64,000 nucleotides of DNA from Larus michahellis (taxonomy: Eukaryota > Chordata > Aves > Charadriiformes > Laridae). Location: contig NC_133910.1 of assembly GCF_964199755.1 (NCBI RefSeq), positions 3,432,501 to 3,496,500 on the forward strand, in the 5' to 3' direction. The position numbers were made by a program, and so were the translations under genes. Under the pieces are notes generated by a model. That model did not search any database. It worked only from the letters and a program-made list of their open reading frames with translations, and was not told where the DNA came from. Below, piece after piece: positions 5,550 through 64,000 of this stretch. Positions within the stretch are counted from its first letter, which is position 1, and the number at the start of each line of letters is the position of its first letter.

Positions 5550-6412
5550 CGAATGGGATGTACTGGTTGGGAATGCTGCCATACAGAGAGACCTGGCCAG
5601 GCTGGAGAGTTGGGCAGAGAGGAATCTTATGGAATTCAACAAGGGCAAGTGCGGGGTGCTGCACCTGGGGAGGAATAACCCCCTGCACCAGGACAGGTTG
5701 GGGCTGACCTGATGGAGAGCAGCTCTGTGGAAAGAGACCTGGGAGTCCTGGGGGACAACGGGATGACCATGAGCCAGCAATGGGCCCTTGTGGCCAAGAA
5801 GGCCAATGGCATCCTGGGGGGCATCAAGAAGAGCGCAGCCAGCAGGTGGAGGGAGGTCATCCTCCCCCTCTGCTCTGCCCTGGGGAGGCCACAGCTGAAG
5901 CACTGGGTCCAGTTCTGGGCTCCCCGGGTCAAGAAGGACAGGGAACTGCTGGAGAGGGGACAGCAAAGGGCTACCAAGGTGCTGAGGGGATGGAACACCT
6001 CTCTGATGAAGAAAGGCTGAGGGACTTGGGTCTCTTCAGTCTGGAAAAAAGACGACTGAGGGGGGATCTTATCAACGCTGATAAATACTGAAAGGGGGGG
6101 TGTCAGGAGGATGGGGCCAGGCTCTTTTCGGTGGTGCCCGGGGACAGGACAAGGGGTAACGGGCACAAACTTGAGCATGGGAAGTTCCACCTCAACATGA
6201 GGAGGAACTTCTTTGCTGTGAGGGTGGCAGAGCCCTGGCACAGGCTGCCCAGAGAGGTGGGGGAGTCTCCGTCTCTGGAGACATTCCAACCCCGCCTGGA
6301 CGCGTTCCTGTGCCACCTGCTCTGGGTGACCCTGCTCTGGCCGGGGGTGGGACTGGGTGATCTCCAGAGGTCCCTTCCAACACCCACCAGTCTGTGATTC
6401 TGTGAATCCATG
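5550..6412 (+). repeat. CR1 LINE, 5'-truncated, sense on plus strand
   Basis: The plus strand encodes the C-terminal part of the CR1 ORF2 protein in several broken frames. Recognisable blocks are 'VERDLGVLGDNGMTMSQQ' near 5730, 'REVILPLCSALGRPQLKHW' near 5850, 'EKRRLRGDL' near 6045 and '[17 protein letters not shown]' near 6240. The copy ends with the usual CR1 3' text ('ggtcccttccaacac', then 'tctgtgattctgtgaatcc') at about 6412. It is the longest CR1 fragment here, about 860 bp, and is inactive because the frame is interrupted repeatedly. A long antisense frame over it is a shadow. Confidence 0.93.
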
Positions 6413-7099
6413 ATGCTTTGGAAATGGTATAAACTGGAAGAAAGACAGGAGCCAATATATTCCTGCAAACATGCTGAAATGAAATTTAGGCAGCTCTAGC
6501 CAGCAGCAGGTCAGCTAAGCTATTGTGTTTCTGGAGCTAAAATAGAGAAAGTGCTTTCTGGTGTCAATTTTTATATCTAATACTTTTGATTTCCTTCTTA
6601 TTGATACTTGCTGACAGCAGCAGAACTGCAGTTACATGTGAGCAGACATTATCTGTCAGAAGAGCTCTCCCATGGTTCAGCCCGAGTGAAAAGCGAGGGC
6701 GCTGTGCATAAACATAAGGAATTTATGGACAGTTAGAAAACCCTCAGTATTAATCATTTCCACAATTGCGTTGTAACCAAAGGGCTGCAAGAATCTTAGT
6801 TTCGGAGTGAGTGAGTTAATCTAGAATCTCCTTTTAAGTAGATTTCTGCTGTCCAGGTAATCGGGGGATTAATTCTGCAAACATACATAGTCTGACATGA
6901 AGGAGCCGCTTCCTTAGAGAGCTGGGAGAAAGGAATATGTTACTTCTGTTAACTTCCGTTCTTCTCATAGGTTCCAAATTTTGTTATTTTTTGCCTTTTT
7001 TTGTGACTAAAAACACACTTCAGGGCTTTTAAAATACCAATCTGGCTCATTGCCTAGTGAATACGTCTATAAGTGTTTTTCTGCCAGACAGAAAGACAA
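6413..7099. other. Intergenic, nothing recognised
   Basis: AT-rich non-repetitive DNA between two CR1 copies. No splice-flanked open frame or RNA gene is visible. Confidence 0.5.
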
Positions 7100-10125: not shown

Positions 10126-13100
10126 TCAGTTGTCATCAAAAACACTGCTGTTCCTGTTACTCAAGCTGTTTTCCTTGACCATCACTCGGTAGGAGATGCG
10201 CATGAAAGAGCCAGTGAGCAGCGTGACAAAGAGGATGAGGAGCAAAGACCAGACCCCTGGTTCAATCCCCTTGAGGAAGCTTGGGCTGTCCTGGGGGATG
10301 GAGTTGGTGAGGCTCAGCAGGTACCCGAGAGTCCAGCCAGAGGACGTGCCACCCATCTATTGAAATAAAAAGGAGGAGAGGTCAGAAGAGAAGGAGACAG
10401 CCTGGACCCCAGCTGTGTTTCTGTGCACAGGCCCAAGGCCTCGTATATTTTATATGAGACTGATACAAGGATTAGGCTTGAAATTAAGAGCTCTCCCACT
10501 CTCAGTGCCCTGAGTGCGCTAATAGGCCTTAATTGCCCTGACCAGCCTCACCTGGCACTTCCACCCACCCCCTCTGCCCATGGGCCTGGGAGCTCCATTT
10601 AAGCTCAGGCTTGGGCAGTTCCCTCTTTCCTGAGCTGTGCTGGAGGTGGGTGCTGTTCCTTCTCCTGCTGACTGCCTGGTTTTCCCAGATGGACCTCAAG
10701 TCTACGTTGTGGGGAGTTCTGTCTCTGGCCCTGTGAGCCTAGGAGCCTCAGACCTATGTTGCAGGTAGCTTGTCTCTGGCTTTCCGGAGTGGGCTCCCTG
10801 CGTGGACCCTGGACCAACCTTGTTATCTTGCCTTGGTCTGATCATCACCGTGTGGCTGACTGAACCGCTGTCGCTGATGAGGCCCTGCTCAGTGGGACAT
10901 TGCCTTGCTGGTGAGTAGAGGAGAGGTCTGGGAATAGGCTTTCTTGCCTTTTCTGAAGGGGAGGACTTGAATCAAATCCTCCTTTCCTTGGGGCCTCCAG
11001 ATCCTGAAGTAATCCCAGGCCTTGTAATCCAGTTATAAACCCTCACTAGTACAAAGGTGATTGCAAAGAGGCAGGGCAGCATCTTTTGGCTCAGGAAATA
11101 TTATCAGTGGTTTGTCCTTAGCGTTAAGTGGTGACCAAGCCATACTTCCTTCCCCATTGGGCACAGACTCTTAAAGATGGTATGGCTTCACATAAGGTTT
11201 TGTCCCGTCTGTTTTTCAGCGAGGACGAGCTTTCTAGCTCTCTGACACTGGGTTTTTTTGCTTATCATAATTGTGAATTTATTTTGCAAAAAAATGTTGC
11301 AGGAGAAACCTAGCTGCTTAGGGCTCGTAGGGCTGGAGACAGGTTGGCTGTACTGAAACCAGCGCTCCCTCCTAATTGGAAATACCACTGACCTTCTTCT
11401 GGAATGCAGTCCAAACAGAGCCGTCAAAGTCAAAGCTGTATCCCTTTGTACTGAGATGAAAGATGAAGGCAGACACAACGCAGTAGTCAGCAAGTGTATG
11501 CAGGCTTGTTTGGGACTCCTTGACCAGCTGGTGTTGTTTCCAAAAGAAGATGGGGCGGCGGAGGGGAATAAAAGAAGTAAATATTCAGTAGCTGAATTTC
11601 AGGCCTGCTGTAACCTTTCCTTTCCTGCTATGGGACTGGAGGAGGGGGTTGTGTCCTGTGCAGGCTGAAACCGTGTTTCCTGCACACCCTGGGCTGTGGT
11701 CTGGGAACCAGTGTCATCTCTTAGTGCCTTTGTCCCCATCTCATCAGAGACCAGGCAGTCCCAAGCGCAGCAGGGCTGGCAGCCAGGTCTCCTACAGTTG
11801 TCTCGCAGGTCAACTGCTTGGTTTGATTCTCTGCTCTCTAATGAGGTTGAGCTAATGCTGCATCCTTTCTCTCAACAGGAGCACCAACAAGATCTTTCTC
11901 TTCTATGCAGAAGAGAAGGCTTTAGGGAACAGCTTGTGGGCTTTGCTACCCCATTAGCAAACCCTGTAGAAATTGTCCTATTTGAATGTTACTGTGGATG
12001 CTTGTTCAGTGTAGTTGTAAATGGGGGTGACCTCATAAGCTACCGACTGAGGGGAAGAACTTACAAATTCCCCCATCTTGATCTCCGTGGGCCCTGGTGA
12101 AATGGGAAAGCCCCTGGAGTCTGAGCAGATGTGTTCCTTGTACTGAAGGAGAGGAGGATAACAGGATGACTGAGGTGATGTACAGGAGTGAATAGGCAGC
12201 CTTCCTGTTTACTCCTTAATATGCAGTAAACAGTACTGGTGGCTTTTCATTTAATTAAGTCCAGGTGTTACCAGCAGCAGCTGGTATTTGAGAGGAAGGA
12301 AAATAAGTGAAGCCTGTTTCCTCAATGTTTAAAAAAAAAAAAAAAAACCCAAACCAGGCAAATCCAAGTTTTCCCCTGAGGGAGACAGTAACTTATGGTT
12401 CTGTCAGTCGGAACCACATGGGCTTTTACAACAGACCATTCCTTGCTTCTCACTCTCCTTGTGCACTAAGTTATTCCACAGTTACCTCTTTGACGGACAT
12501 TCCACAAAGCCTTTTGACTGCCTGGCCCAAGTCAGGAGAGGGTACGGTTTCTCTCATGAAGTCCATGGCCTCAGAAATCACCTACAAGAGGAGCAGAAAC
12601 AATCATCAGGCTGGACTCTGCTCTATGTCCTTGCATTGCATCTATAGGAAAGTAAGTGGCAGCAGCTCTGGGGTGCGTTGCCAGGGTGCCCTGTCTGTGT
12701 GCTTGTGGTGGTGCCATGGGTGCAAGGAAGACAAGCAGGATCTGTTACTGTCTGGAGATGGAAACTGGACTGTTTCTAGCTTCCGTGCAGCTGCCTTCCT
12801 GGCCCTGCAGGCAGGACCTTATGCTCCTTGGGACCATGTCCATGGGAGGCTCTCAGGAGCAGGGAGCTGGGGAGATTTCTGTAATTCCTCCCTCTGAAAT
12901 GCACTCAGTTTTTCCTAGGATTTTGAGCTGGTCCTGGCTTAACAACCCGATAACTTTGGACACTAGATTCAGGGTCTCAGATATAAGCATGCTTGCGGTG
13001 GGGCATGTCCAGATGTTTGCCAAGGGAGTGGCAGAGGATCTTCAGCTTCACCACAGACTTATTTTGGGGAAGACCTGCTCAAAAGACAGCTCCTGATTGC

Positions 13101-16100
13101 CCTATCCTGGCTGGCTCACACAAACTCCGTTATGGCTTTGTGGAGCCCCGAAGTTTGTCTTGCAGGCAAACATTGCTGAGATGTGGATGAAGAAAGCCCT
13201 ACCGCAGTCATTAGTGGGAAGCTGTGGTCCATGTTTGAACAGCTTTGTGTTGATGAGAGGGAGAGAGCAGGGCACATGTGTGCAGCGTTAGCCAGAGCAC
13301 TGGCCCTCTTGGCTAGCAGAGGGCACAGCATGGCTGTTCCCACTGTATGACCAAACTGGTCCTATTTCATGCATTCTCCATACCAATTGCCTACCTAAAT
13401 GTAAATAAGAACCCACCAGAAACCTGGTCCGGAGGGGCTTGAAAACACTGCTGGGGGAATGCTCGAGGAAGCTGCAGGAAGAGGAAGAGTTGAGCAGGTT
13501 TTGCATGAGTCTCATACAGGCGGTGGGATTGCCGGAGCCGGTGATGTTGAAGACCTCCTTAGGGCCAGGGATGTCCCACGTGTCATTGCTGACAGCACAA
13601 GGCCCAGCATGCACCGATTGCCACTGCACTTCCCGGGAGTAGGTGAGGGGCCAGCAGGGATTAGTCACAGTTTTAGCACTTCTCTGATCCTAGAGAGGCA
13701 GAATAAAACAGGCAACAAGAGAGGACATTGGCATCCTAGAGGTTCACAAAGGAAGACAAAATGTAACACAGTGAAGAACAGTTTTCCTCAGGCACCACCA
13801 CGTTGTAATTAAGCTTACGGTCTGCAAAAGGTTTGCCAAACCTTATCCCAGCCGGTCAACTGCAAGACTGATGCAGCAGGTTCCCAGCTCCAGCGGAATT
13901 CAGGGCAAGCTGCGATGCTGGGACCTGCTGTGGGAGGCTGAGTCGTCCCAGCCCTACCTGCTCTCCCTTAGCCCAGAAATAAAATTTCAATGAATCCTGT
14001 ACTCTTTCTGGTTGCAAGAAAGAGGCTGTTCTGGTCTGCCTTCCAAATGTCTCAACCCTGGAAGAAGCAGTGTTTCTCATCTCTTGGAATTCCCCAATAT
14101 AACTGTGATGAAGTGGGTCTCCATGTGGGACATTCGGGTCTCAGGTAAGGGGAGGTGGGGTTTATAGGGAGGCAAGTGGATGGGCAGCAAGTAGTTTATT
14201 TCTGAGCAATTCAGTTTTGGTGGAGGCTAAAATGATTCCTGAGTTTGCATCAGATCCTGCCGCCTCTCCCTCAAATTAAAGTTTGTAAGAACCAAAACAC
14301 CTGCGCATTTTCAAAGTGAAATATTGCTCTTTTAAAGATTGCTTCTCAGCAAAGGACACAAATACCCCAAATGGAAGATCCCAGTTGGTTCCTGGGTGCT
14401 GCTGTTTAGGCTCCTCTTCTAGGACGGAGGAGCAGTTCAGAGGAGCCAAGGGAAGTCTCTGCTTCTCTCCACGCTGAAGGTGATCTTAGCACCTCTGGAG
14501 AGCAGTTCTGTGCTCGTGTGTATTAAGTAAGGAGCCAGATGGAGCCTGCAAGTAGGATATTCTTGCATCGGTGCCTGTGTGTCTGCTTGGAGGGCATTGG
14601 TTTGGGCATAGAGAGTATGTTTTGCAAATGCACTGGCATTTTTTAGATAGATGCAGATGCCCTCTATTAAAGACAGTGACGTTCTGCCCATTAGCAGCTA
14701 GCCTGTGTGCAACTGTCATTTAGTGATGTTGTATCCAGGAGCCTTGCAAATGCCCCTATGGCAGATACTCACTTGAATGAGCACAGAGAGCAGGCTGCTG
14801 CGGAGCTGGTCCGTGCCGTGGCAGGGGCAGTGGTGAGTGTACACGTTGTGCGTCTTCCCATACAGCTGCAGCCTCACTCCTCCTTTCGGTGCCTGGTTTC
14901 CTTCTTCCACCTTGAATGTGAGCTGTGCTGAAGTTCTTCCCACGGACAGGACTCCTGCCGTCCCCTTCCCGGAGGGGACCAACTGTCCTCGCCAGTCGTA
15001 CTGACACAAAAAGAACCAGAGAGATCAGTTCTTAAGACTTCCACATCTGGGTCGTGGTCAGATGCAAGCATTATTGCACAGAGAGAGAAAGCAGCTTTCT
15101 GGTGCAGTACAGCCCAACTGTTTTTCTTTTTTTTTTTTTTTTTTTTCCCCCCACGCAGGACATAAGGATGCTGAACTGGTGGCTTTGGAGGGAACAGAGG
15201 AGCCGTTGTACAAGTACATCTGCACAGAGAGCTCCCCACAGCCAGCAAGAGCAAACAGGGCCCACCACTCTGGGTGGCTGTTCAAGCTACTGGTCTCAGC
15301 AGGTAGGAACAGGGGAGAGAGGGTGGTGGTGGGGAAATGGGAGGGAGGCTTCCAGGTGGGCAGATATGGGCTTCAAGTGCTGCCTTGATGCTAAAGTGAT
15401 CCTCCTGTCAGAAGAACCCTGTGGTTTCATCTCCTGCAGTCTTGCAGAACTGATTTTGGCAATGCTGAAGTTAGTAGTTTAGGTGGGTGTAAGCTCTCTG
15501 TCCCCAGCTGGGGAAAGCTGTGTTGCTGCCAGCAGGGCTGGCAATTCCCTAACCAGTGCGTGCTTGCTGCTGGTTATCAGAACTGCCTTTCACTTCACTA
15601 ATGTGGAATAGCTCAATCAAACCCACCTTTCTCTTGGCCCTTGAGTTCTTCTTGAGACCCTTTGGCTTGAGAAGCCATGGGTAGAGCAAGGAAACTTAAA
15701 TGTATTCTTTTTGTTTAGCAAGTGCCTTCTGAATACAGACCAGGTCTCTATGCTGGGGACGCCCAGCTCTACTCTTGCTAGTGTCTCAATGAGAGGAAAC
15801 TTGATGGGCTTTTGTTTTGGCAGCAAAAGACTCTGCTGCTCTGTCCACCATCCACAGGGTGTCCCATGGGACAGATGGACTGCAGTGGCAATCCCACAGC
15901 ATGGCACAGACGTAGCATGTACAGACAATGCCTGTTTGACAGTGGTGCTGAGCTAAAGCTGTAGGGACTCGGGGCACTGGAGTTCTTGTTGACACCCCAG
16001 GGCCAGGCTATGGAAGGTTATAGAATAGAATCATAGAATTGTCTAGGTTGGAAGGAACCTTTGAGACCATTGAATGCAACCATCAACACTGCCAAAACCA

Positions 16101-19100
16101 ACACTGAACCGTGTCCCTCAGCACCATGTCTGCCTGGCTTTTAAATACCTCCAGGGATGGCGATTCGACAACTTCTCTGGGCAGCCTGTTCCAATGCTTG
16201 ATAACCCTTTTGGTGAAGTGGTGCTGAGCCAGAGCTGCAGGGACTCAGGGCTGCGGAATTCTTGTTGACACCCCAGGGCCAGGCTGTGTAAGGTTATCCA
16301 TGTGAGCATCCCAGATGTGCTGCCCAGAAAGCCTCACATCTGTCAGGGCAACTGCATGGACATGTCCATGAAATGCTATATTAGAGGTTTGGTCCTTCAG
16401 CCTAGTTTTGACCATCTTACGTTACGTCCCCCGGAGCTGGTGTTGGATAGAACTTGCCTTCTCTAAAAGACAGCAGAAGCTGTGCTTAAGCACAGTTTGA
16501 AGTACAGGGCTTCAACGATCCTTCCACAGGTCTCTGTGGCTGTTTGCTAAAGGGAGTTGTGCTTAGCTCAGTTCTGTACTCCCCAGGCAGGATTGTCCTT
16601 TACCTTGAAGAAGTTCTCCAGGACATAGTTAACAGCAACCCAATTGAATGCTTCCTCATCTGGACTGGACAGGATTTGTGCTCCCTGAAAGTCAAAGGGG
16701 GATGACTTCAGGGCCACAGTCAGGGCTGCAAGGAGACCGTCAGCGCGGGTGAGATTTGTGAGGCTAAACAGAAAAGAAAAAGAAGGCACATCTGTTGTTA
16801 CAGGAGCCTGCCAGGAGCAGCCTGCAGTGGGGGCACAGCTGCAGGGCTTGCTGCTGTGCTCCCCACTTCAGGTAGTAGCACAATGACAATCCCACTCCTG
16901 CTGCTACTTCCCTCTCCCCTCGCATGACACTGGGGTCAAGAACAGCAGAGGGCCAACTTGAGCAGTTGTGCCACCATTCAAGAATTTGGTTCTGCCACTG
17001 AGGGATCCTGTGGTCTTGCCAGCTGACCTGGGCCCCTCCAGTCTTTACTTTTCCCCAGTGTCTAAAAAGAAATAAAGGTCCCAGTAACGAGGTGACCAAG
17101 AACAGGGTCTGGAAAAGCGAGTATGATAAGATGGATCTTCCCACCATCGCTCCCAACCTGCTGACAAGAAGCACCCCTGCACACCCATGTGGGTTTTCAC
17201 CTAAACTGAAAACACCTCAGCTTCCAGACTGACAGATATTTCCCCAAGCACTAATTGCAAAGGAGACTTTACACGGACTGGTAGCAGTAGCAAGACTGTC
17301 CTCCTCATGGCTGCCTGGGGGGACAGTATGGAGACACAGCCATGCCATACTCCCCTCGAGCGCGTGGGGACCTGAAGAAGGTTTACCTGACTAGCAGCTT
17401 AGGGATGAAACACACTGCAGAGCAGACAAGGTGAGATGCATTTACAGAATGATCCGCATGGCATGTGCTGATCTCGGGGTGTGGGTTTGCAACATTCACT
17501 CACTTCAGCTGCCCCGTGCTGGCGGTTGCTCCCAAGTAGAGGGGCGTTTGGCTGTGCAGCTCTGCCGGGATCTCCTCCTGGGCATGGTTCAAGCATAGCT
17601 CCAAACTCTTCCCTACTTCCTGAGGAGAATCTGAGTGGTTGGAGATTCTCAGACCTGAGGACCAGGGGAAAGAATGACATTTTCCAAGGAAAGACATGGG
17701 AGAAGTGTGAGAGCTGTTACCCAAGAGGTTGCTGTCCTAGGGCACGGTTAAAGGCGGGACCTGTCCCAGGCAGAATGAAGGAGTTCCTCCGGGTAGCCAT
17801 CCTGCTAAAATGTGGTACAGGGAGCAAAACAGCACATGCATGTAAATCCCACATGGCACACAGAGAACCCTAGCTCTGCTGCTGAGACATCCTGTAAATG
17901 ACCACGGTATCAGCTGATGCTGTCTCAGCCCACAGAGGAAGAAACGTGGCTTTAGCTACTATAAAAGATAAGCCAGCAGACACACTGCCATGCAGATAGA
18001 GCCGAAGCTGATGTGTCAGCGCTTTCCGCTTCCTCTTGTGTTGGTGGAGGTGGCTTCTGAGCCCCACGCCTGCAAGCAAAGCACCTCTGCTCCAGAGGAA
18101 GCTGGCGCTGTGTGGGGAGCAGCTGTGTGCAAGCCTTGACTCATCTGTCCGGCAAGATTCAGTGAGGTCTGAAACGCTGGTTTTGAACTACTACCCAGAA
18201 GGAGCCGCACTTCCCCATCCTCTGGCCCACTTGCCTTCCTGGCTGCGCGACTCCCTCACCATGTGCTTTGCTCTCCTGGGCCCTGTGTAGGGCTGAGCTG
18301 CGGCTTCCCTACGGCCGCACAAAGGCTGTCACCACACTGCCATGCAGACCAGGGACCACTACCCACATCTAGGAGAGAGACTTGTCTGGACCTCTTGCTG
18401 CTGCTGGCACCTGCAGCAGCAGGTTCAAGTAAGTCTTCAAGCACCGAGCTGGAGTTGCTGATTTTAACCCAGGCAGTGAACGTGGCTGCAGTGAAGGGAC
18501 ATCTATGATAAGGTTTCAGGGAGCCCTTACTGCACCTTCTGTATGTGGTTTGTATTGCTTACAGTCTGCAAGGGCACAAACCTTCTTCCCTGCTGCTTGT
18601 GCAGCTGCCCTCCCACAGCACACTGCTACCGAGAGTTCAGGGTTTCCCGGCATCCTGCTATAATCAGGCTTCAACTTCAAAGCATGATTGAGAGACAGGG
18701 AAGGAAAACCCCAAGCATTAATGCATGAAACCCTTTCAGCTGGCTTTGGCAGGGCTGAACCGATTCAAACTAGAGAGGAAGACCCCAGTATTCTCCAAAA
18801 TGTGACACCTAAGACCAAACTGAACTCATGCTTGTGCTGTCAAAACTTGCATAGAGGGTTGGAGTCTTCACACCTCTGTTGCCCTGGAGCTACCCCACTT
18901 TCTGCTAGAGTAGTCAGGAGGAGGCAGAGGGTACCAGGAGTCACCCTGCAGCCAGACTTGTGTCTGTTGCTGTTTGCTGTCTCACCTGAGTGAGGAGCTC
19001 AGCAACCTTGGCTCTGCCTCCCATCCATGTGGACATCAGGACCAGCCCCTCTGTGTGCTTCCCTGCCTGCAGCAGGCCAAAAAACCTGTCACCTGCTTCT

Positions 19101-22100
19101 GCTGAGTGCTCTGACATCCAGCCATGTACGGCTAAATCTGCCTGTGTTGAGAAGAACCATGCTGAAAATAAGCAGCCTGTGCTCCACAGCGCTATTTCAG
19201 TGTACAGCTAGATGATACAGGAGCCGAGGAAATTGCAGCAATGGTCCATGCACAGATCTCTAGGTTTCCACCCCTCCCATGCCAGTCCCACAGACCACCG
19301 AGCATGAATTGGGCACCTTACCTTGCACAGGACAGGAACTACATTCCCTGATCACCCCGGTCTTGTTTGCCTTGGTGGTGGTCCACTGGTAGACGAACAG
19401 GATGGTGCGGGATGGGCCAGCATCCAGAACAATGCCATACTGGAAAAATCCCAAAACACTCTAGGTAAACACCACTGAAGGCATGCTGCTTTGCTATTGT
19501 AGGGTTACTCAGCATTGTGTAGGTATTCTGGGTAACCCCCGGGCCTGCACTGCAGTATTTGAGTTAGCTTTTTCCAGGCAAAGAAAGGGTGAAGCCAGAA
19601 GATGGTGTGGATTTGCAGGGAACCATCTGCATTTCTGAATATACATGAGGAGCGGTAGGAGTGGAGAAACACCCAGAAATACGTCAGAGCTGCAGTGGCA
19701 TGCTCTGTAGGTCTTCCTGAAACCAGTCAGAGGGCTCCCGCTGAGAGCTGAGCCACCTGGAGCTCAGGAAAAACAGGTCCTAAAGCGGTGGGAGATGGCA
19801 CTATACAGGCTCTCAATTGACTCTGGGACTCAAACTGCTGCTGGATTGGTTTGCTGAAGAGATAAGGATTTCGTGCAGGAATCGGAGCGCTGTGGCTTGC
19901 TCCGGCTTCTGAGGAAGCTGAGACTCCCATGTCCGCTTGACGCCCAGCTGCAGAGGTGGTGCGACACGGGCTGGGTTTGCCCCTGTGGGAGCTGAGTGTG
20001 CTGGGACCAGCCAGCACATACACTGTCCGACACAGCAGCCCTGAGGAGACCGAGATTATGTCTTGGCAGAAACAGCAGCAGCAACCATAAGATTTCCCAA
20101 CACCTTGTCCTCTGACAGTTCTTCTCCTACTGCCTAGCAGTGAGGCCGAGGGCTTTCTTAGTCTCTTTGCAGCCCAGCATCTGGTCTGTTTGGTGCAGCT
20201 GAGCCTTGCTGAGCTGCACCTCCTATGTGAGGTTAGGAAATGAGAGACCACACTCGGGTACCTGCAGCACGGCTCTGTGGCTGGTTTGGATGTCCCCACG
20301 CTCAAAATAGCCCTGGTGCTGGCCTATGGTGTCCTCCTTTCCCCCCTGTGGAGCTCCTCTCACATCAAGGCAGGCTGAGAGTGTTGGGGGGGTTCAGCCT
20401 GGAGGCTCCGGGGAGACCTTAGAGCCCCTTCCAGTCCCTAAAGGGGGCCTACAGGAAGGATGGGGAGGGGCTGTTAGCAAGGGCATGTAGCAATAGGATG
20501 AGGGGTAATGGTTCTAAATGTGAAAGATGGGAAATTTAGATGAGATCTGAGGAAGAAATTCTTGGCCATGAGGGTGGTGAGCCCCTGGCCCAGGTTGCCC
20601 AGAGAAGCTGTGGCTGCCCCATCCCTGGAGGGGTTCAAGGCCAGGTTGGACGGGGCTTGGAGCAACCTGGGCTGGTGGGAGGTGTCCCTGCCCAGGGCAG
20701 GGGGTGGCACTGGGTGGGTGTTAACGTCCCTTCTGACCCAAACCATTCTATGGTTCTATTACGTGACCCCAAACTGGGACATCTCCTACACAGACAGGAA
20801 AGAAATTAGTGAGATCTGGGGGGTACGTGGTGGTGCGTGGCCTAAGCTGTATCTTGCACAGAAATAGTTGTAGCTGTGACTGAGTGGGAGGAGAAACCTC
20901 CTGAGAGGTTGATATTAACAGTCAGGAGGGTTTTAGCACAAGACAGAGCCTGGCTGCAGCCTCTGAGGGAAGCTGGCTGCCTGCTTCCCTCCTGGGTGCT
21001 CCCAGCTGCACCAGACACAGCGCCCGGGACAGGAACTGGTGGGACTGGAGCTGGAGCAGAAATGCGGAAGGAGGATGGAAGTCCCTGCCTGAGCCTGCTG
21101 GCACCCTCCCACAGGAGTGACAGCTTGTATTTCTCGCAGGGACATGTCGGCTGCCGCAGAAGAGGAAGAAATGAATGGTATTGGTGGAGAAACATGGATT
21201 ATTTTTTTTTTCCTGCTTCACAAAATGAGAGGCTGCTGCTGGGAGCGCAAGGGAGAAGAAGGGATCACTGCGTTTCTGCCTCAGCTTAACACCAGGAAGG
21301 GCAGAGCATGGAGTAATGAGGGGTTTTTTTAATCCAATTTTGGTTCTGAGAGGAGCGTAGAGGAAGGGTAGTATCTCTAAACATGCAGGTTAACCTACTT
21401 CTGTTTGATTATACCATAACGTGCCACTGATCTCACCTCAGCAGCGGGTGCACGAGAGGCAGAGCGGATGGGCATTAATCCCCCCCTCACCAGGCAGATC
21501 TGACCCCGCTGCAGAGAGCAGGTTGGCTCTTCGGTTAAAATCAAGACAGGACAGAAGAGGAGAAGGCATGGAAGATAATTTACTGTTTTTTGGGTTGTTT
21601 GGTTGGGTTTTTTTGGGACAGAAACAGCAGTTCAGGGCCAAATTCCATCTGACTTTCAGGAGGGACCTAGCTCTTTCCCTCCATGGACACCACTGGTCCC
21701 TTGTCGCTCTGAGGTAGCTCCTGACATGGGCTGCATCTCCTCAGCCTGTGGTGAGCATCTCTGCTGGATGATACCCAGCCTGTATTCCCTGACCAGCCAA
21801 AGGAGTTGCCTTGTTTTTGCCTCGAATATCTACAGCATGTTGCAGGATGCAAACCCATCCTCGCAGCCTTGCTCTAGTCCCCTCCTCAAGCTTGTTGTTT
21901 CGGGCTAGTAACTAACTCAGTAGTACAACGAATGTAAAAAGCAATAAAACACAACAGGTTTTAGTTTAAATGCCCACTTGCAAAAGGGAACAGGAAGCTT
22001 CTCCTTAATAAGCAGCCCCGCAGAGGAGGAGAAGGTCCTCTGCTTATTGCCCCGCTTGACCCCCAGCCTGGCCACCCCTTGGGTGGGGGGACACCCTTAC

Positions 22101-22214
22101 CTTGGTCCTGGGAGGAGCGACGGGCACATCTTTAGTGGAGACGCAAAGCAGCACGATGCCCGTCAGTCCCGCTACGATCACCAGCCAGGGGGGAAGGAGT
22201 TCACGCCAAGACAT
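10126..22214 (-). CDS. ENTPD2-like: ENTPD2-like NTPDase with eroded active site (9 exons, 501 aa)
   Basis: NTPDases are cell-surface enzymes with two membrane anchors that hydrolyse extracellular ATP and ADP. Exons in transcript order: 22101-22214, 19322-19439, 17504-17654, 16604-16763, 14773-15000, 13417-13689, 12486-12581, 11393-11527, 10126-10356. Every junction is GT-AG and phases match, giving 501 codons without a stop (human ENTPD2 is 495). N-terminal anchor is residues 7-25 and C-terminal anchor about 459-477. The start ('[14 protein letters not shown]') and 'LNLTN' after ACR2 favour ENTPD2 over ENTPD8. The apyrase regions are damaged: ACR1 is DAGPSRT (44-50), ACR2 GATASTGQL (119-127), ACR3 [10 protein letters not shown] (160-169), and ACR4 '[12 protein letters not shown]' has lost its key Asp (Ser200). 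ACR5 [11 protein letters not shown] (432-442) is intact. Most structural cysteines remain; one in exon 6 is missing. I infer a full-length, probably catalytically dead protein. Confidence 0.88.
10500..10915 (+). repeat. Possible LTR-like avian interspersed repeat
   Basis: GC-rich block inside the last intron of the NTPDase gene. It has 'gggagctccatttaagctca' (a CATTTAAG TATA-like core) followed by pyrimidine-rich text and ends near 'cattgccttgctggtgagta'. The pattern resembles an avian repeat with an LTR-type promoter, but I cannot name the family, and no paired copy is present in the window. Boundaries are approximate. Confidence 0.3.
12331..12347 (+). repeat. Poly-A tract
   Basis: Seventeen consecutive A residues within intron 7 of the NTPDase gene. 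No retroposed sequence recognisable to me precedes it. Confidence 0.8.
15121..15146 (+). repeat. Poly-T tract
   Basis: A 26-base tract, all T except one C, in intron 4 of the NTPDase gene about 120 bp upstream of exon 5 on the minus strand, where it reads as poly-A. Confidence 0.8.
15942..16021 (+). repeat. 80-bp direct repeat, copy 1 (flanks a CR1)
   Basis: This block begins 'gtggtgctgagct' and ends 'ggccaggctatggaaggtta'. It matches 16218-16297 at roughly nine positions in ten by eye. The two copies sit exactly on either side of a CR1 fragment inside intron 4 of the NTPDase gene. Confidence 0.85.
16022..16217 (-). repeat. CR1 LINE 3' fragment, older subfamily
   Basis: Starts 'agaatcatagaattgtctag' (CR1 3' end in reverse) and runs through 'tacctccagggatgg' and 'ctgggcagcctgttccaatg' to 'ttttggtgaag', where it is truncated. 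It differs from the young copies elsewhere in the window and is flanked by an 80-bp direct repeat. Confidence 0.9.
16218..16297 (+). repeat. 80-bp direct repeat, copy 2 (flanks a CR1)
   Basis: Partner of 15942-16021, with the same start ('gtggtgctgagcc') and end ('ggccaggctgtgtaaggtta'). The 5' boundary coincides with the truncated end of the CR1. Confidence 0.85.
20362..20760 (+). repeat. CR1 LINE 3' fragment, plus strand, in NTPDase intron 1
   Basis: Sense copy that reads through 'aataggatgaggggtaatgg' and the ORF2 C-terminus ('[18 protein letters not shown]') to a 3' end 'cccaaaccattctatggttc' at about 20757. It is close to identical with the copy at 45542 in reverse orientation, including the uncommon 'gttaacgtcccttctgaccc'-type tail. 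Confidence 0.93.
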
Positions 22215-22281: not shown

Positions 22282-22326
22282 CTTTTTATAACCTTTAAAA
22301 AGAGGAGAAAGGCGGGGCCGGGGCCA
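22282..22326 (-). promoter_or_regulatory. TATA box and GC box of the NTPDase gene
   Basis: On the minus strand a canonical TATAAAAAG lies at 22290-22282, 68-76 bp upstream of the ATG at 22214. GC-box-like text (GGCCCCGCC) lies just upstream, around 22311-22326. This predicts a transcription start near 22255 and a short 5' UTR of about 40 nt. An intact core promoter argues that the gene is still transcribed despite its eroded catalytic motifs. Confidence 0.6.
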
Positions 22327-22327
22327 G

Positions 22328-23376
22328 GCTCTGACTTCAGCCCAGCCCCAAGCCACAGGGACCACAAGGAGCGCGTGGGCCAAGCTGCGATGCGTCAGGC
22401 ACTTCTCCCTTCCATCCCTCCACACAGTAAATAAAATGACGGCTTCATGCCTGTTCCAGTGCTAGCTTTGCAAAGGCATCGGTGCAACCTCGAAACTGCC
22501 CCAGGCAGCGGGGCTGAGGTAAACAGAAATGTGGGGTTAACTCAGCTGTGTAATAAGCAGAAAGCAGGCAAAACTCATCCGTTTGGTATGCTGCGCGTGG
22601 AAATACCAAACTCCCTGTCACTGGGTTTACTTTATATCTGCGTGCTCCAGGGTGGACCTGGGGTGTTTCCCTCAAGCACGTGTCCATCGGGTTGGGGCAG
22701 AGCGTGAGCGTTCTGCCCAGTTCCTTCAGACTGCTCCTGCCTCTTTGTTCCCTCTCAGGTGGCACCTGGGACAGGAGAACGTCTACACATTTGGGTTTCC
22801 ACCCGCAGGAGACTCTGGCTGGTTTGGTCTTTGCTGTGGAGGAGGGGATATGGCAGGGGCTGCTCGGGTCTTTTGCCCCCAGAAGGCCAGTGTAGGTGCC
22901 TGTATTCCCCTTCCCGACAGCCTCCCCATGAAAGGTAGCCGACCCTCAGACTTTACAAAACACGCACCCGCTTTCTCGTTTCCGGTGCCACGAAGACATC
23001 CCTGAAACCAGAATTTCTGAAGAAAAATGTGTTAGTCCCAGGAGAGATGCTTCTTTCAGGCTGTCCCCATCTGTTTCTCCGTGACAGAGTCTAGGAATAA
23101 AAGTGCAACTTCTTTAAAGAAATATTTCGGTTTGTGCGAGCTGGAGCATCTATTGGCAAGGCTATCTTGTCCCCACCAGAGGACTTCAGCCAGGCCTCCG
23201 CAGAGCTAAAGGAATGACATGAATGATGCCTTCTTGGTCTTGCAGTGGTATTTGTAGACACATCTATTGGTCTTAGAGTTGTTTTAAGCAAAGCGCCAGG
23301 ATTCCCTCATCTTCCCGCAGAGTTTAGACTCCAGTTCAGATTTTGCTGGTCAGCAACTAGAATGCATCTGCAGATG
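22328..23376. other. Divergent spacer between NTPDase and NELFB, unique part
   Basis: Unique sequence upstream of both genes. No exon is recognised here. Apart from the NTPDase promoter elements at its left edge I see no clear regulatory motif. Confidence 0.45.
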
Positions 23377-23654
23377 TCCTGTAGTGACAGGATGAGGGGC
23401 AGCGGTTTTAAACTGAAAGAGGGTAGATTTAGGTTGGACATAAGGAAGAAATGTCTTAGATGAGGGTGGTGAGACCGTGGAACAGATTGCCCAACGAAGT
23501 TGTGGATGCCCCATCGTGGGAAGTGTTCAAGGCCGGGTTGGGCAGGGCTTTGAGCAGCCTGGTCTAGTGGGAGGTGTCCCTGCCCAGGGCAGGAGGCTTG
23601 GATTGGGTGATCTTTAAAGGTCCCTTCCAACCCAAACCATTCTGTGATTCTTTG
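23377..23654 (+). repeat. CR1 LINE 3' fragment, plus strand
   Basis: Sense copy with 'gtgacaggatgaggggcagc', the protein segment 'GFKLKEGRFRLDIRKK' in the plus frame, and a 3' end 'caaaccattctgtgattctt' at about 23652. It is somewhat diverged. Confidence 0.92.
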
Positions 23655-24529
23655 TTTTTCTTACACTTGGGCTGACAGTGCTCTGCTTTGCAAAAGAGAC
23701 AGGGATTAAATTGCCAGAGTGCTGACAATCCTCCTTGCCCCTGCTCTCGCGTCTGCCTGGGGGGACAGGCAGGCTTTCAGGTGCTTTGCTGGGAAGGATT
23801 TGTGCAGCATTCAGCTTGCTGCAGTGCTGCAAACAACACAGGAGCCCCAGGCATCCTCCTGTCTCAAAGAAATGCTGCGCGTGGGATGGGTGGAGCGGCT
23901 GCTCACACTGTGGCAGTTGGCTGGTGGCTCGTGCCCGTGGGCAGGTCACAGTAGTTTATACCGATATCGCGATATATCATCAGCACCTAAGGATATCCAA
24001 CAGCCATGGTGGAGCTGCCAGATCCTGCCATGGTAACGCCAGTCGTGCTGTGTTCCATCAGCAGAGCAGCATCCACCTTGAGCCGTGCGGGGGCTGCTTC
24101 TGCAGCTGGGACACGGAGAGAGGGATGAAGGACCCATGGCTGGGAACAGCGGAGCACGTCCATTCTGTTGTCTGGGTGTCGGGGTTCTGTCGACAGACCC
24201 AAGTCGCTTAGGGGGGCTCTAAAACACATAGGTTTTGCCTCGATAGTTAAACTAACTGGTGGGCAGACGCCAAAGGGGTTTCTGCGGTGGCTTGGACTGA
24301 TGCAGCTCTGTACAATCCTGGCGCCCGGCTGCAGATCTCATGAAGGACAAATTAGGGTGCTTTTTTCCCCCCACTCTGTAGCAGCTATCCTGGAAGTATG
24401 GGCCTGCCAAGGTCAAACCGCGAAGGGGGAAAGGCCACTTCTCCTTTGTGAGACTGTTTTTGGTTGCGTTTCTCATTTTCATTGCTGTCTGCCAGGGATC
24501 AGCCAAGTGCCGAGGGATGCCTCGTGCAC

Positions 24530-45541: not shown

Positions 45542-45962
45542 AGAATCATAGAATGCTTTGGGTTGGAAGGGACGTTAACACCCACCCAGTGCCACCCCCT
45601 GCCCTGGGCAGGGACACCTCCCACCAGCCCAGGTTGCTCCAAGCCCCGTCCAACCTGGCCTTGAACCCCTCCAGGGATGGGGCAGCCACAGCTTCTCTGG
45701 GCAACCTGGGCCAGGGGCTCACCACCCTCATGGCCAAGAATTTCTTCCTCAGATCTCATCTAAATTTCCCCTCTTTCAGCTTAAAACTCTTACCCCTTGT
45801 CCTATTGCTACACTCCCTCATAAAGAGTCCCTCCCCGTCTCTCCTGTAGGCCCCCTTGAGGGGCTGGAAGGGGCTCGAAGGTCTCCCCGGAGCCTTCTCT
45901 TCTCCAGGCTGAACCCCCCCAACTGTCTCAGCCTGTCCTCACAGCAGAGGGGCTCCAGCTCT
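45542..45962 (-). repeat. CR1 LINE 3' fragment, minus strand
   Basis: Starts 'tagaatcatagaatgctttg', continues through the shared ORF2 C-terminal segment, and reaches further 5' ('cttctccaggctgaaccccc', 'cctgtcctcacagcagaggg') to about 45962. It is the closest relative in the window of the copy at 20362. Confidence 0.93.
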
Positions 45963-60695: not shown

Positions 60696-63430
60696 CCCCG
60701 GTGAGAGCAAGCCCAGAGGCTCCAGCTCTTGGAGGATTTTGAGCAAAAGCAAGCTGTTCTCCTAAAGCAGCTGCTGCTTTTCCTGCCTGTGGTTCTCCGA
60801 GCTGTTTCAGTTTCGCCACCACTGCTGAGATCTCCTTTCCACCGTACAACAGGGGGCCACTGGAGCTTTTTCCTGCCCATCAGTTCTTCTTCTCTCGGTG
60901 CATCTGAAAGAGCTCGGATGCTTCTGCTGCCCTGCCATCAGCTGCACCGCGGACCGACCCTCGTGGGAGGACGGGGTAAGTCTCCCCTGTGGCTGCGTGC
61001 CATGTTTTATTCGTATTCTGTTTTAACAGGAATCAGTTTCCGAAGGCAAAGCTCTCCATGGCTGTAATGCCAAGCAATGCTGTTGAGGTTTCATCAGGGC
61101 TGAAACAGGTGAGGGTTTTTTACATAAAGATCGGGCAAAATCCCTGGAGTGCTCAGAGACACAGGGCTGGATGCTGGGCCTGATTCCTTCTCTTCACATC
61201 CAGATTAGCTCTAACTCTGCTGCTGTTTTCCAGCTAAGTGTGTGGCCAATGGCTCCTGTGATTCACCTTCAAGTTAAGTGAAAATTAACTCTTTTTTTCT
61301 GCTTTGCCTTGATAAGCTAAAGCAGATTTCAAATTTTTGAGTGATTCTGAGGTGTTTTCTTCTTACGGCTCAAGATTTCCCCTCTCACTCGGAGATCCTC
61401 TGCCTCTTTCATTAAGAAATTATTGCCTATATTAAAACTTGCTTTCTATACAGTGGGCATCAAATCCAGGCCACGGCTAGTGTGGGGAAAGCGAAGCCCA
61501 TGGCCTCGTGGAGTTTTGTCACCCTGAGAGCTGAGCTGGTCGTTGCTGCCGCAGCGGTTCTGCTTTGGGTAGAAAGGAGAGGATCCACTTGTCACCAGCG
61601 TGGCTGCTCCCTGCGACGGGGTGGGATTTCTGGAGCTTTGTGGATGATGTTGCCAGAAGGCAGCAACGAACCATTATTAAAAAGTCCTTAATTTGGAAAG
61701 ACCCACTTTTTGGGAAAAGTAGTGAAAGATAGAGGAAAGCAAACAGCTAATGGCTGCATAGCTGTAACAACTTCTCTGCATTAGAAGCCACTGTCTTTAG
61801 TTGATGGCTTAGCAGATAATAATTAACTTTCCCAGTTTTACCAAAATGGGAGTTAAAGGCTAGATTAAGGAAATGACACCCTCTTTCAGCCAGGCTTAGG
61901 GAAGCCCTGGTGAGGACGAGCTGGTTCTTGATCCCTCCTGAGCTGTTCAAGCCACATTCCTTCATCAGCCACCTTCACCAGCCCCCCGGAGCACACAGGA
62001 AGGTGCAGTTTACTTGCAAGTTTCTCGGGCCGACCGAAGCCAGGAGAGGCCGAAGGTGCCTCTGTCTAAAAACACATCATCCGTAAAAATGCCTTCAAGC
62101 CTGTTTTCTCCCCAGGGTCTGTCCCACATCGCTCGGGATGCAGTGAGGAGCAGGGAGCTGTGACTGCAGCAGGGCAGGCTGAGAGCATCTTCCCGGAAAA
62201 GGCTCGTTACATGGAGCCATTATCCCAACGTGGCCCTGAGCCTTTTGGGGAGATGCTGGGATGCGACATGGTCATGCCCCAAAGGCAGAGTGAGCGAGGA
62301 CCAGTACAAGAGCCAGGGCATAATTCCAAGTGCTTAAACCTAATCAAGAGTGTCTGATTTCAGAATCATCCACATATGGATGTGAGGCTCCCAAAGGGCC
62401 AGGGAAATATTTTACTGCTGGGGAGACACCAAGGGGCTTAAAAGCTGCATCCCAACAAGGGACAGGCTGGGTGTCTGCCAGGCAGAGCTCGGTGCTGCCG
62501 TGATGGTCTCGCTCCTGGCCCTGCCGCCGCTCCTGCCAACAGGATCCTGGCACAATTTTGGGTCACCCCATGGTTGTGATAGTGCTCAATGGAAAGAGCA
62601 GCTTTGGAGGATGCTGTGCCCCCAACCAGCCTCCCAGCTGTTAGTGCCACCAGCAACGAAGAGGTATCTAAAGGGCGTGATCTGGCGTGGGTGGAGGGAG
62701 CAGCATCTGCCACCTGCCCGGTGGTGCTCCCTCCAGGAGAGAGACCCAACGCACGCAGCAGAGATGCTCCTTTGACCAGGCTGTGAATAAACAGCAGCAC
62801 CTCGTACCCAACAGGGTGTCCTGCTTGGTGGGACAGTGGGAGAAGTTTGGGTACGGCAGCCGAGCAAGGATGACAGAGGGTGCACGGGGGCCGCTCCGCC
62901 TGCAGGGCTGGCAGCGGGAGTAGGTTGGTGAGACACTTCCCAGCCACGCTGTAACAAACCCAGCTGAAACAATTGTAGTGTGGGTGATGCTGGGATCTCA
63001 CGAGTGATTTTAAATGCAGAGGCTTTTGGAGCCAAGCAGTAACAGCATCATCTGTTTCATCTTCCCCCATCAGCAGTTAGCAGTGGTGAGCGGTTAAGCT
63101 GCTCCTGTGGTCCTTTGTAGCCCTTTCATTGTCCTTTGCAGCACAATTAGAGAAAGTCAAGCTGAGCATGGCAGGCTCCAGTCGAATTCTCATGGGGTCC
63201 TATATTTGTATGTGAAAAGCAAGACTTGGCCCCTTGCACCTGACAGGTCTTCTCCTGTGGAGACTAGGATAAATCGTGGTCAACTTTTGGCCATGGATCT
63301 TCAGGATCAGGGATCATTTGAAAACCTGCCTCTGCTGCTTCAACCGCTGTTGCCTCTGATCCTGCTCAGCCTTAAGGTGGTGATTTGGGGTGGTTTCACT
63401 GCTTTTTCTTTTCCACCCCACCCCTTGCAG
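60696..63430. other. Intergenic or 5' intron of the GPCR gene
   Basis: No coding exon is recognised. The GPCR's coding exon begins after an acceptor, so an untranslated first exon may lie here, but I could not identify it. A 210-codon minus-strand frame at 62438-63070 is judged spurious. Confidence 0.4.
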
Positions 63431-64000
63431 GTCAGCACAGAGGGTTCTCCTGAGTCCTTGGAGCTGCTGGCCTCCCTCACCTCCATGAACACCAGTGTGG
63501 ACTGCGTGCCCCAGGGGCTGCACCCCGCCATCCCTGCCCTGGGAACCCTTCTCCTGCTGGGCTGTGTCCTGCTGAACGGCATGAGCTTCTGGGTGTTCTG
63601 CTTCCGCATCAAACAGTGGGATTCAGGCATGATCCTGCAGGTCAGCCTGGTCCTGGGAGATGTCCTGATCATTCCTGTTGCTCCACTCAGGATTTCCTAC
63701 CTCAGCCTCGGAAATCAGTGGCCATTTGGGCAGTTTCTCTGCCAGCTGGAATTCTTCCTGGACAGCATCCACATTTACAGCAGCATCTATTTCCTGACGC
63801 TCATCTGCATTCACCGATACTTTGTCGTTGTACGATACAAGAGCAAGTCCCTCTGGAAGAAGAAGAGCTTCTTGAGAAAGCTGTGCTTGTTCGTCTGGCT
63901 TGTCCTCATTGTCCAAGGGCTGCCTTTCTTCTTTGTCCTCAAGACTTCAGCTATCGATGGCTCAGCAAAATGCCTAAATATTCATCAGTTAGAGTTGTCC
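63431..64000 (+). CDS. Class A GPCR, partial (first 172 residues, TM1-TM4 and start of ECL2)
   Basis: Exon begins after a strong acceptor (pyrimidine tract then 'ccccttgcag' at 63421-63430). Chosen start is ATG 63485, giving a short N-terminus with an N-glycosylation site (N2-T-S) and Cys7, like other small rhodopsin-type receptors. TM1 is about residues 16-40 with Asn31; 'LNGMSFWVFCFRIKQW' resembles GPR35/HCAR-type receptors. TM2 is about 49-68 with Asp59. 'NQWPFGQFLC' gives the ECL1 Trp79 and disulphide Cys86. TM3 ends H110-R111-Y112 in place of DRY, as in several P2Y receptors. TM4 has Trp138, and Cys163 is the ECL2 partner. The frame stays open to the window end with TM5-7 beyond. It belongs in the delta branch of class A (P2Y/GPR35/hydroxycarboxylic-type); the exact orthologue and ligand are unknown. 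Confidence 0.88.

Follow-up and report, generated by a model that had tools for sequence, protein, structure and literature searches.

An open NTPDase gene with altered catalytic motifs raises the question of whether its product is still an enzyme and, if not, what has kept it. The gene considered here belongs to Larus michahellis and runs from 22214 to 10126 on the minus strand of the window, the whole stretch of 64,000 nucleotides that was analysed. Rebuilding the exon model yields the nine exons and the 501-codon frame claimed in the original prediction, with 8/8 introns of the GT-AG type, consistent phases, and 501 amino acids followed by TGA without an internal stop:

22282..22290, minus strand: TATAAAAAG, a match by consensus only, lying 76 bp upstream of the start codon
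22101..22214, minus strand: exon 1, encoding the N-terminal cytosolic MSWRELLPP and the first membrane anchor
19322..19439, minus strand: exon 2, carrying ACR1
17504..17654, minus strand: exon 3, carrying ACR2
16604..16763, minus strand: exon 4, carrying ACR3
14773..15000, minus strand: exon 5, carrying ACR4
13417..13689, minus strand: exon 6
12486..12581, minus strand: exon 7
11393..11527, minus strand: exon 8
10126..10356, minus strand: exon 9, carrying ACR5, the second membrane anchor, the tail, and the stop codon

The eight introns rule out a retrocopy origin, and a pseudogene is rejected by the absence of stops, frameshifts, and missing introns from the 501-codon frame within the window. 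The encoded protein matches PF01150 (GDA1/CD39) with 191.1 bits (cut-off, 24.9), a Pfam search with E up to 0.001 returning no other domain; its best solved relative is rat NTPDase2 (9.6e-97), and structure comparison, in the scope of Foldseek's own best chains, assigns it the NTPDase fold.

The phylogenetic tree places the gull gene in a clade of 65 sampled rows (64 clade members plus the gull sequence; SH-aLRT, 100), beside tetrapod ENTPD2, comprising (i) 52 bird rows, from palaeognath, fowl-like, and neoavian birds; (ii) 10 turtle rows; and (iii) 3 crocodilian rows. Some bird rows do not represent distinct species (P0016 and P0017 share 99.8% identity), and two of the turtle rows counted, P0123 and P0127, are incomplete. 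Fragments, isoforms, and duplicates were left out of the tree and counts (P0052-P0058, P0060, P0067, P0068, P0071-P0073, P0124-P0126, and P0128); among these, P0055-P0058, P0060, P0067, P0068, and P0073 also lack the ACR4 Asp, and P0052-P0054, P0071, and P0072 are without the ACR4 exon. Clade relatives display full frames on contigs of up to 3262 nt, which hints at spliced transcripts. No orthologue beyond turtles, crocodilians, and birds was seen among the matches listed (120 rows, of 150 and 1261 hits, with candidates limited to about 8000), and the tuatara and squamate rows are named ENTPD2.

By sequence and tree, the closest known protein is ENTPD2/NTPDase2 (rat, PDB codes 3CJ1 and 4BQZ), likewise a two-anchor glycosylated GDA1/CD39 protein; nevertheless, the clade is separate, lacks the ACR4 Asp and Tyr350, and carries S48P, and the gull retains its true ENTPD2 at another place on this contig (L009), with intact motifs and grouping with bird ENTPD2. 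The search for separate ENTPD2 and ENTPD8 genes also disclosed three ENTPD8-like copies with ACR4 intact, these gull paralogue rows being rough joins of tblastn pieces in which single odd letters, as in ACR2, are not trusted. Although annotated as ENTPD2-like, the gene is therefore not the ENTPD2 orthologue, as it lies in a separate clade and the gull's own ENTPD2 groups elsewhere, nor a replacement of ENTPD2, as an intact-motif ENTPD2 is present in the genome.

The catalytic motifs were located with the exon model and the clade alignment, and the deletion junction with the clade alignment:

19404..19424, minus strand: ACR1, DAGPSRT, with P in place of rat S48 and R in place of rat H50
17512..17532, minus strand: ACR2, GATASTG
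16640..16660, minus strand: ACR3, DEEAFNW, in which Glu164 equals rat catalytic Glu165
14923..14946, minus strand: ACR4, SVGRTSAQ, in which Ser200 stands where rat has Asp201 and Arg203 where rat has Gly204
12569..12570, minus strand: junction of a clade-wide three-residue deletion (rat F348-Y349-Y350)
10303..10338, minus strand: ACR5, near-normal

The altered motifs are all as first described, and neither the gull gene nor its clade possesses the intact ACR1-5 with both DXG Asp residues that are expected of the family. We take Glu165 to be the catalytic base and R245, A347, and W436 to be nucleotide contacts, the borders of the five ACRs being likewise taken in part from general background. 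On sequence evidence, an essential catalytic residue is lost in all sampled orthologues: the ACR4 Asp (rat D201) is absent from 65/65 clade rows and present in 38/38 ENTPD2 rows; canonical NTP hydrolysis is presumably absent. S48P occurs in 61/64 clade rows, and the Gly204 position is occupied by Arg, Glu, Lys, or Asp in 23/65. Tyr350 is deleted in all 62 clade rows that can be judged, having residues on both sides, the remaining 3/65 being gapped more widely; the three-residue deletion was absent from the original prediction. Relatives on both sides of the bird-turtle split carry the key lesions rather than intact ACRs, which rules out a private mutation or an assembly error. Retention of the catalytic Glu holds for the gull protein but fails as a clade rule, the position being Lys in 24 of the 52 bird rows. 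Ser48, Gly203, Gly204, and Tyr350 are named in PMC5803232.

Among the ectodomain columns invariant in ENTPD2, 2/12 active-site and 37/124 other columns are changed in the clade (Fisher p, 0.91), counts that do not support preferential decay of the pocket; since the active-site columns are not changed more often, the whole ectodomain has drifted and not the pocket alone. Within birds, pocket columns are more variable (0.146 vs 0.073; p, 0.01). Relative to ENTPD2, changes across 12 lineages are 1.40 times as frequent in the ectodomain but 0.47 times as frequent in the anchors plus tail, a shift that recurs within birds and within turtles. By these comparisons, constraint has shifted away from the ectodomain and onto both membrane anchors and the tail:

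22140..22208, minus strand: TM1 helix, residues 3-25 (AlphaFold helix 3-25 in the 99% identical P0001; hydrophobicity peak)
10192..10260, minus strand: TM2, residues 458-480 (AlphaFold helix 458-488 in P0001; constraint)
10129..10191, minus strand: cytosolic tail with YRVM, a candidate YxxPhi motif (clade tail comparison)

Hydrophobic windows from about residues 7 and 459, together with the modelled helices 3-25 and 458-488, predict one anchor at each end, the architecture of cell-surface NTPDases and the arrangement originally proposed. Near the N-terminus, MSWRELLPP is found in 58/65 clade rows, and the tail YRVM in 63/65 compared with 1/38 ENTPD2 rows, a YxxPhi motif arising in 25% of shuffles of the gull tail. 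The YRVM sits very near the membrane. The expectation of most structural cysteines and many glycosylation sites is borne out: nine of the ten cysteines common to ENTPD2 ectodomains are kept in the gull protein, rat C328 being lost, and eight N-x-S/T sequons are present, one of them (N494) within the cytosolic tail. The gull protein contains two extra cysteines, C71 and C239, found in 47/52 and 52/52 birds, respectively; the sequon N305 occurs in 51/52 birds, 0/13 turtles and crocodilians, and 5/38 ENTPD2 rows.

Several explanations compete for this pattern. A relic drifting under weak constraint toward a pseudogene, expressed or not, would account for an ectodomain faster than that of ENTPD2, and its losses would be invisible in protein databases, which show survivors only. 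Nevertheless, in such a database, where broken genes are not listed, full-length frames are open in all sampled birds, turtles, and crocodilians, without the stops expected of a young pseudogene; a simulated neutral frame is broken by 0.1-0.2 substitutions per site, the whole-protein rate is just 0.85-2.25 times that of ENTPD2 of the same species, and the membrane parts are slower than those of ENTPD2, so that drift is highly improbable. At the protein level, the frame appears to be held under purifying selection. A hydrolase that is still active but has changed its chemistry or its substrate, using Asp45, Glu165, Ser206, and a rebuilt ACR4 on another phosphate ester or metal site, draws on the persistence of Asp45 (62/64 clade rows with a residue there), Glu165 (28/52 birds, 9/10 turtles, and 3/3 crocodilians), and Ser206 (61/65, with Gln208 in 55/65), and on turtle ACR2, ACR3, and ACR5, which are mostly normal. 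According to PMC3829800, ENTPD5 G201A leaves activity unaffected, a tolerated Gly to Ala change whose assignment to ACR4 is made in this analysis and not by that paper. The universal loss of D201, the Lys at Glu165 in nearly half of the bird rows, the deleted Tyr350, the Gly204 position replaced in 23/65 rows, and the departure of constraint from the ectodomain nevertheless render such an enzyme improbable.

A nucleotide-binding decoy or sensor, with hydrolysis lost and ATP or ADP still bound at the cell surface, would be compatible with the retained NTPDase fold, with Trp436 in 65/65 clade rows, and with most of the ACR1 loop. However, birds are without both faces of the base sandwich, Tyr350 being deleted and Arg245 replaced in 51/52 birds (Arg245 is not invariant in ENTPD2 either, 32/38), the Gly204 position often bears a charged residue, and the pocket still varies within birds, leaving little likelihood for this role. 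Because of the first two changes, the nucleotide-binding function suggested in the original prediction is weakened, and binding by the clade protein appears unlikely. A role in recognition or adhesion at the surface, or as a signalling receptor, exerted through ectodomain contacts and the tail and unrelated to other NTPDases, gains from the bird sequon N305, the bird cysteine pair, and the conserved tail, but the ectodomain is the fast-changing part and Pfam gives PF01150 only; we regard it as unlikely.

A dead, selected, membrane-centred protein is the probable answer, and the retained pseudoenzyme with a non-enzymatic role originally proposed gains support from the common lesions, the open frames, and the separate ENTPD2. 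An ENTPD2 duplicate would have lost the NTPDase reaction before the bird/crocodilian/turtle split and would have been retained ever since as a pseudoenzyme. The ectodomain, folded and glycosylated, may act as a passive cap, with TM1, TM2, and the tail contacting a membrane partner; the strict conservation of the anchors suggests such a partner protein rather than an enzyme, and the YRVM tail is a candidate sorting signal. That the protein is a dead subunit in mixed oligomers with active ENTPD1, 2, 3, or 8, tuning their activity or surface residence, has a little under an even chance. The more general proposal, that the common ancestor of turtles, crocodilians, and birds turned the duplicate into a lineage-specific non-catalytic NTPDase subunit or membrane adaptor, is put forward tentatively, at slightly lower probability; its two helices would join it to active NTPDases, or to some other membrane protein, whose activity or endocytosis it would set.

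Dead paralogues of a membrane enzyme selected for membrane contacts and trafficking are exemplified by the iRhoms, membrane pseudoenzymes that nevertheless belong to another family with another fold. Within the GDA1/CD39 proteins, ENTPD5/mt-PCPH (PMC3829800) shows effects in cells with undetectable NTPDase activity, but it is an oncoprotein version of an enzyme that is normally active and not a retained germline paralogue. A literature search, with most subscription papers outside its scope, returned nothing on catalytically inactive or pseudoenzyme NTPDases, nor on bird ENTPD8 with ENTPD2; for ENTPD2-like it gave a single listing, on mouse bladder. Among the best 20 of 370 papers listed on mutagenesis of the ACR4 Asp, none consulted dealt with that change.

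A gene that annotation calls ENTPD2 or ENTPD2-like thus appears to be a dead NTPDase kept by selection in birds, turtles, and crocodilians, and the label ENTPD2-like in a bird or reptile genome is no proof of ATPase activity. The clade offers a natural test of an open NTPDase question, the reason for two membrane helices that affect activity, as its helices stayed, and tightened, once catalysis was lost. If the proposal is true, turtles, crocodilians, and birds would possess a layer of purinergic control apparently missing in mammals and squamates.

The gene was rebuilt with the same outcome as in the original prediction, a stop-free frame of nine exons in compatible phase, and its setting within the window is as follows.

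22214-10126 (-): NTPDase-like gene, nine exons, 501 codons, zero internal stops, GT-AG boundaries at 8/8 introns
19322-19439: exon of this gene encoding gull C71
14773-15000: its exon 5, which holds apyrase conserved region 4 (ACR4) and C239; 228 nt, a whole number of codons
~25250 onward (+): gene head to head with it, N-terminus MYAGLQELGVANGED, from which we take it to be NELFB-like
20474-20755, 23307-23660, 5639-6514 (-), 45544-45846 (+): similar reading frames (NHRMVWVGRD...LEPLQGWG...) in introns and flanks of the gene, probably old interspersed repeats
63098-64000 (+): P2Y-type class A receptor, continuing past the window end into locus L019 (C19:3496201 on)

The receptor, whose best solved matches are P2Y2 (141.8 bits) and P2Y4 (134.8), lies ~41 kb from the NTPDase-like gene, and this adjacency of a nucleotide-receptor gene may be chance. 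Isoforms lacking the ACR4 region are listed in databases for Gallus, Callipepla, Alligator and Pelodiscus (P0052-P0054, P0071, P0072). Birds have gained two cysteines (rat NTPDase2 positions 72 and 240), which turtles and crocodilians do not have, and have lost rat C328, a possible rewiring of a disulfide.

The gull protein, with GDA1/CD39 as its sole Pfam match and rat NTPDase2 as its closest solved structures, is 99% identical to that of the kittiwake Rissa tridactyla. Among the best 120 of 150 matches in a search of 5.8 billion proteins, many birds carry the gene (~70-99% identity), followed by near full-length turtle and crocodilian sequences (~53-60%) and then by ENTPD2 (34-49%); a leatherback turtle query returned the identical set with further turtles, ENTPD2 again coming next (best 120 of 1261 matches). 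Public annotation calls the gene ENTPD2-like or ENTPD2. In a quick-method tree of 108 sequences, with the genome's own ENTPD1, ENTPD3 and ENTPD8 as outgroup, the 65 members of the clade (52 bird, including the window, 10 turtle and 3 crocodilian) fall on one side of a single branch (SH-aLRT 100); their stem is long (0.8) and arises somewhere among the tetrapod ENTPD2 sequences. The separate normal ENTPD2 and ENTPD8 that the prediction proposed to look for are both present: a true ENTPD2 (L009), clustering with bird ENTPD2, lies at C19:1.51 Mb, ~1.9 Mb from the gene, and three ENTPD8-like copies, named by tree and similarity (L010, L011 and L012, C19:2.16-2.19 Mb), keep an intact ACR4 DLGGASTQ, L010 and L011 being almost identical in opposite orientations. 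The clade gene and ENTPD2 occupy an equal-sized contig in 10 of the 15 species with sizes listed for both (Rhea, Coturnix, Accipiter, Morphnus, Serinus, Melanerpes, Pelodiscus, Chelonoidis, Dermochelys and Carettochelys), and sizes differ in Columba, Pitangus, Eurypyga, Mesitornis and Chaetura, each with at least one gene on a contig <2 Mb; the gene therefore appears to be an old duplicate that shares its chromosome with ENTPD2.

Active-site lesions were counted in an alignment of the 65 clade sequences, 38 ENTPD2 and the genome's own ENTPD1, ENTPD3 and three ENTPD8-like copies (rat NTPDase2 numbering). The ACR changes read in the gull recur in its relatives: ACR4 Asp201 is absent from 65/65 clade sequences, replaced by Ser, Ala, Thr, Leu, Ile or Val, and is kept in 38/38 ENTPD2 and 5/5 of the other controls, while ACR1 Ser48 is Pro in 61/64 and Ser in 43/43 controls. 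Phe348-Tyr349-Tyr350 are deleted in all 62 clade sequences that have residues flanking the site on either side, and the gap is wider in the other three; these positions are occupied in 38/38 ENTPD2 (position 350: Tyr 33, His 4, Phe 1), and Ala347 is Glu or Asp wherever the clade aligns. Being common to birds, turtles and crocodilians, these changes would most simply be older than the split of these groups, more than 250 million years ago. Unlike them, other changes depend on lineage, including Gly124Ser (52/52 birds, 3/3 crocodilians, 2/10 turtles), Gly169 (Asn in 47/52 birds, Leu in 3/3 crocodilians), Arg245 (replaced in 51/52 birds and 7/10 turtles; Arg in 32/38 ENTPD2) and Gly204 (Arg, Glu, Lys or Asp in 23/65 clade sequences). 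The catalytic glutamate is indeed kept in the gull (Glu164), but its retention is not a clade rule, because Glu165Lys occurs in 24/52 birds.

In published work, the DXG Asp of ACR1 and ACR4 interacts with metal in productive NTPDase structures (PMC12489842), the base is sandwiched by Tyr and Arg in the rat enzyme (PMC8004787), ligand-contacting residues in NTPDase2 docking include Ser48, Gly204 and Tyr350 (PMC5803232), and in ENTPD5 the Gly-to-Ala change G201A was harmless and W177A abolished activity (PMC3829800). We strongly infer from the sequences that ordinary NTPDase activity has been lost in the clade.

In simulations without indels, 13% of copies still had an unbroken frame at 0.05 substitutions per site, falling to 0.7% at 0.1 and to 0/400 at 0.2, and protein identity among birds and to turtles indicates divergence deeper than these levels. 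Among eight species that carry the clade gene as well as ENTPD2, the protein-level clade/ENTPD2 distance ratio was 0.85-2.25 over 28 pairs (1.07-1.66 in 25/28); the pairs share branches, and the gull ENTPD2 is a rough join.

Table. Protein-level changes per site, counted by parsimony with the species tree held fixed, in 12 matched lineages, four of which (woodpecker, crane, passerine, crocodilian) pair related species instead of one species
Region: clade; ENTPD2
N-terminus and TM1 (first membrane anchor): 0.47; 1.40
TM2 (second anchor): 0.78; 1.43
Tail: 1.36; 2.27
Ectodomain: 1.83; 1.31

The membrane-to-ectodomain contrast was reached in 0/5000 site permutations across the 12 lineages. The (membrane + tail)/ectodomain ratio was 0.24 in the clade vs 1.18 in ENTPD2 for six birds alone (0/5000), and 0.37 vs 0.94 for five turtles alone (2/5000). 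MSWRELLPP stands near the N-terminal start in 58/65 clade sequences and GSF.RI.YRV at the second membrane exit in 59/65. The membrane part thus appears to be the region under strictest selection after catalysis was lost. ENTPD2-invariant active-site columns had not changed more than other invariant columns (2/12 vs 37/124, p 0.91; 7/21 vs 32/115 with a wider active-site list, p 0.39), a result that counts against a simple story; within birds they are more variable (0.146 vs 0.073, p 0.01).

NTPDase oligomers are needed for full activity, and the two transmembrane domains matter for function and regulation (PMC7954995). The likeliest mechanism, and the simplest, would be that of an inactive subunit whose helices pair it with a putative partner, either an active NTPDase or some other membrane protein, the ectodomain serving as a cap. 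Loss of the base-binding side chains makes less likely both nucleotide binding, which the original prediction had offered as a non-enzymatic role, and with it a nucleotide sensor. Beside helix pairing, a conserved tail YxxPhi motif (mostly YRVM; 63/65 clade sequences vs 1/38 ENTPD2) could serve trafficking, a role weakened by its appearance in 25% of shuffled gull tails and its closeness to the membrane. The only clade members without it are two hummingbird proteins (P0044, P0051).

A literature search, mostly outside subscription papers, found no account of this bird, turtle and crocodilian clade; the nearest precedent found is the inactive ENTPD5/mt-PCPH oncoprotein. Judged by its sequences, we rate the clade as a branch of pseudoenzymes within the NTPDase family.
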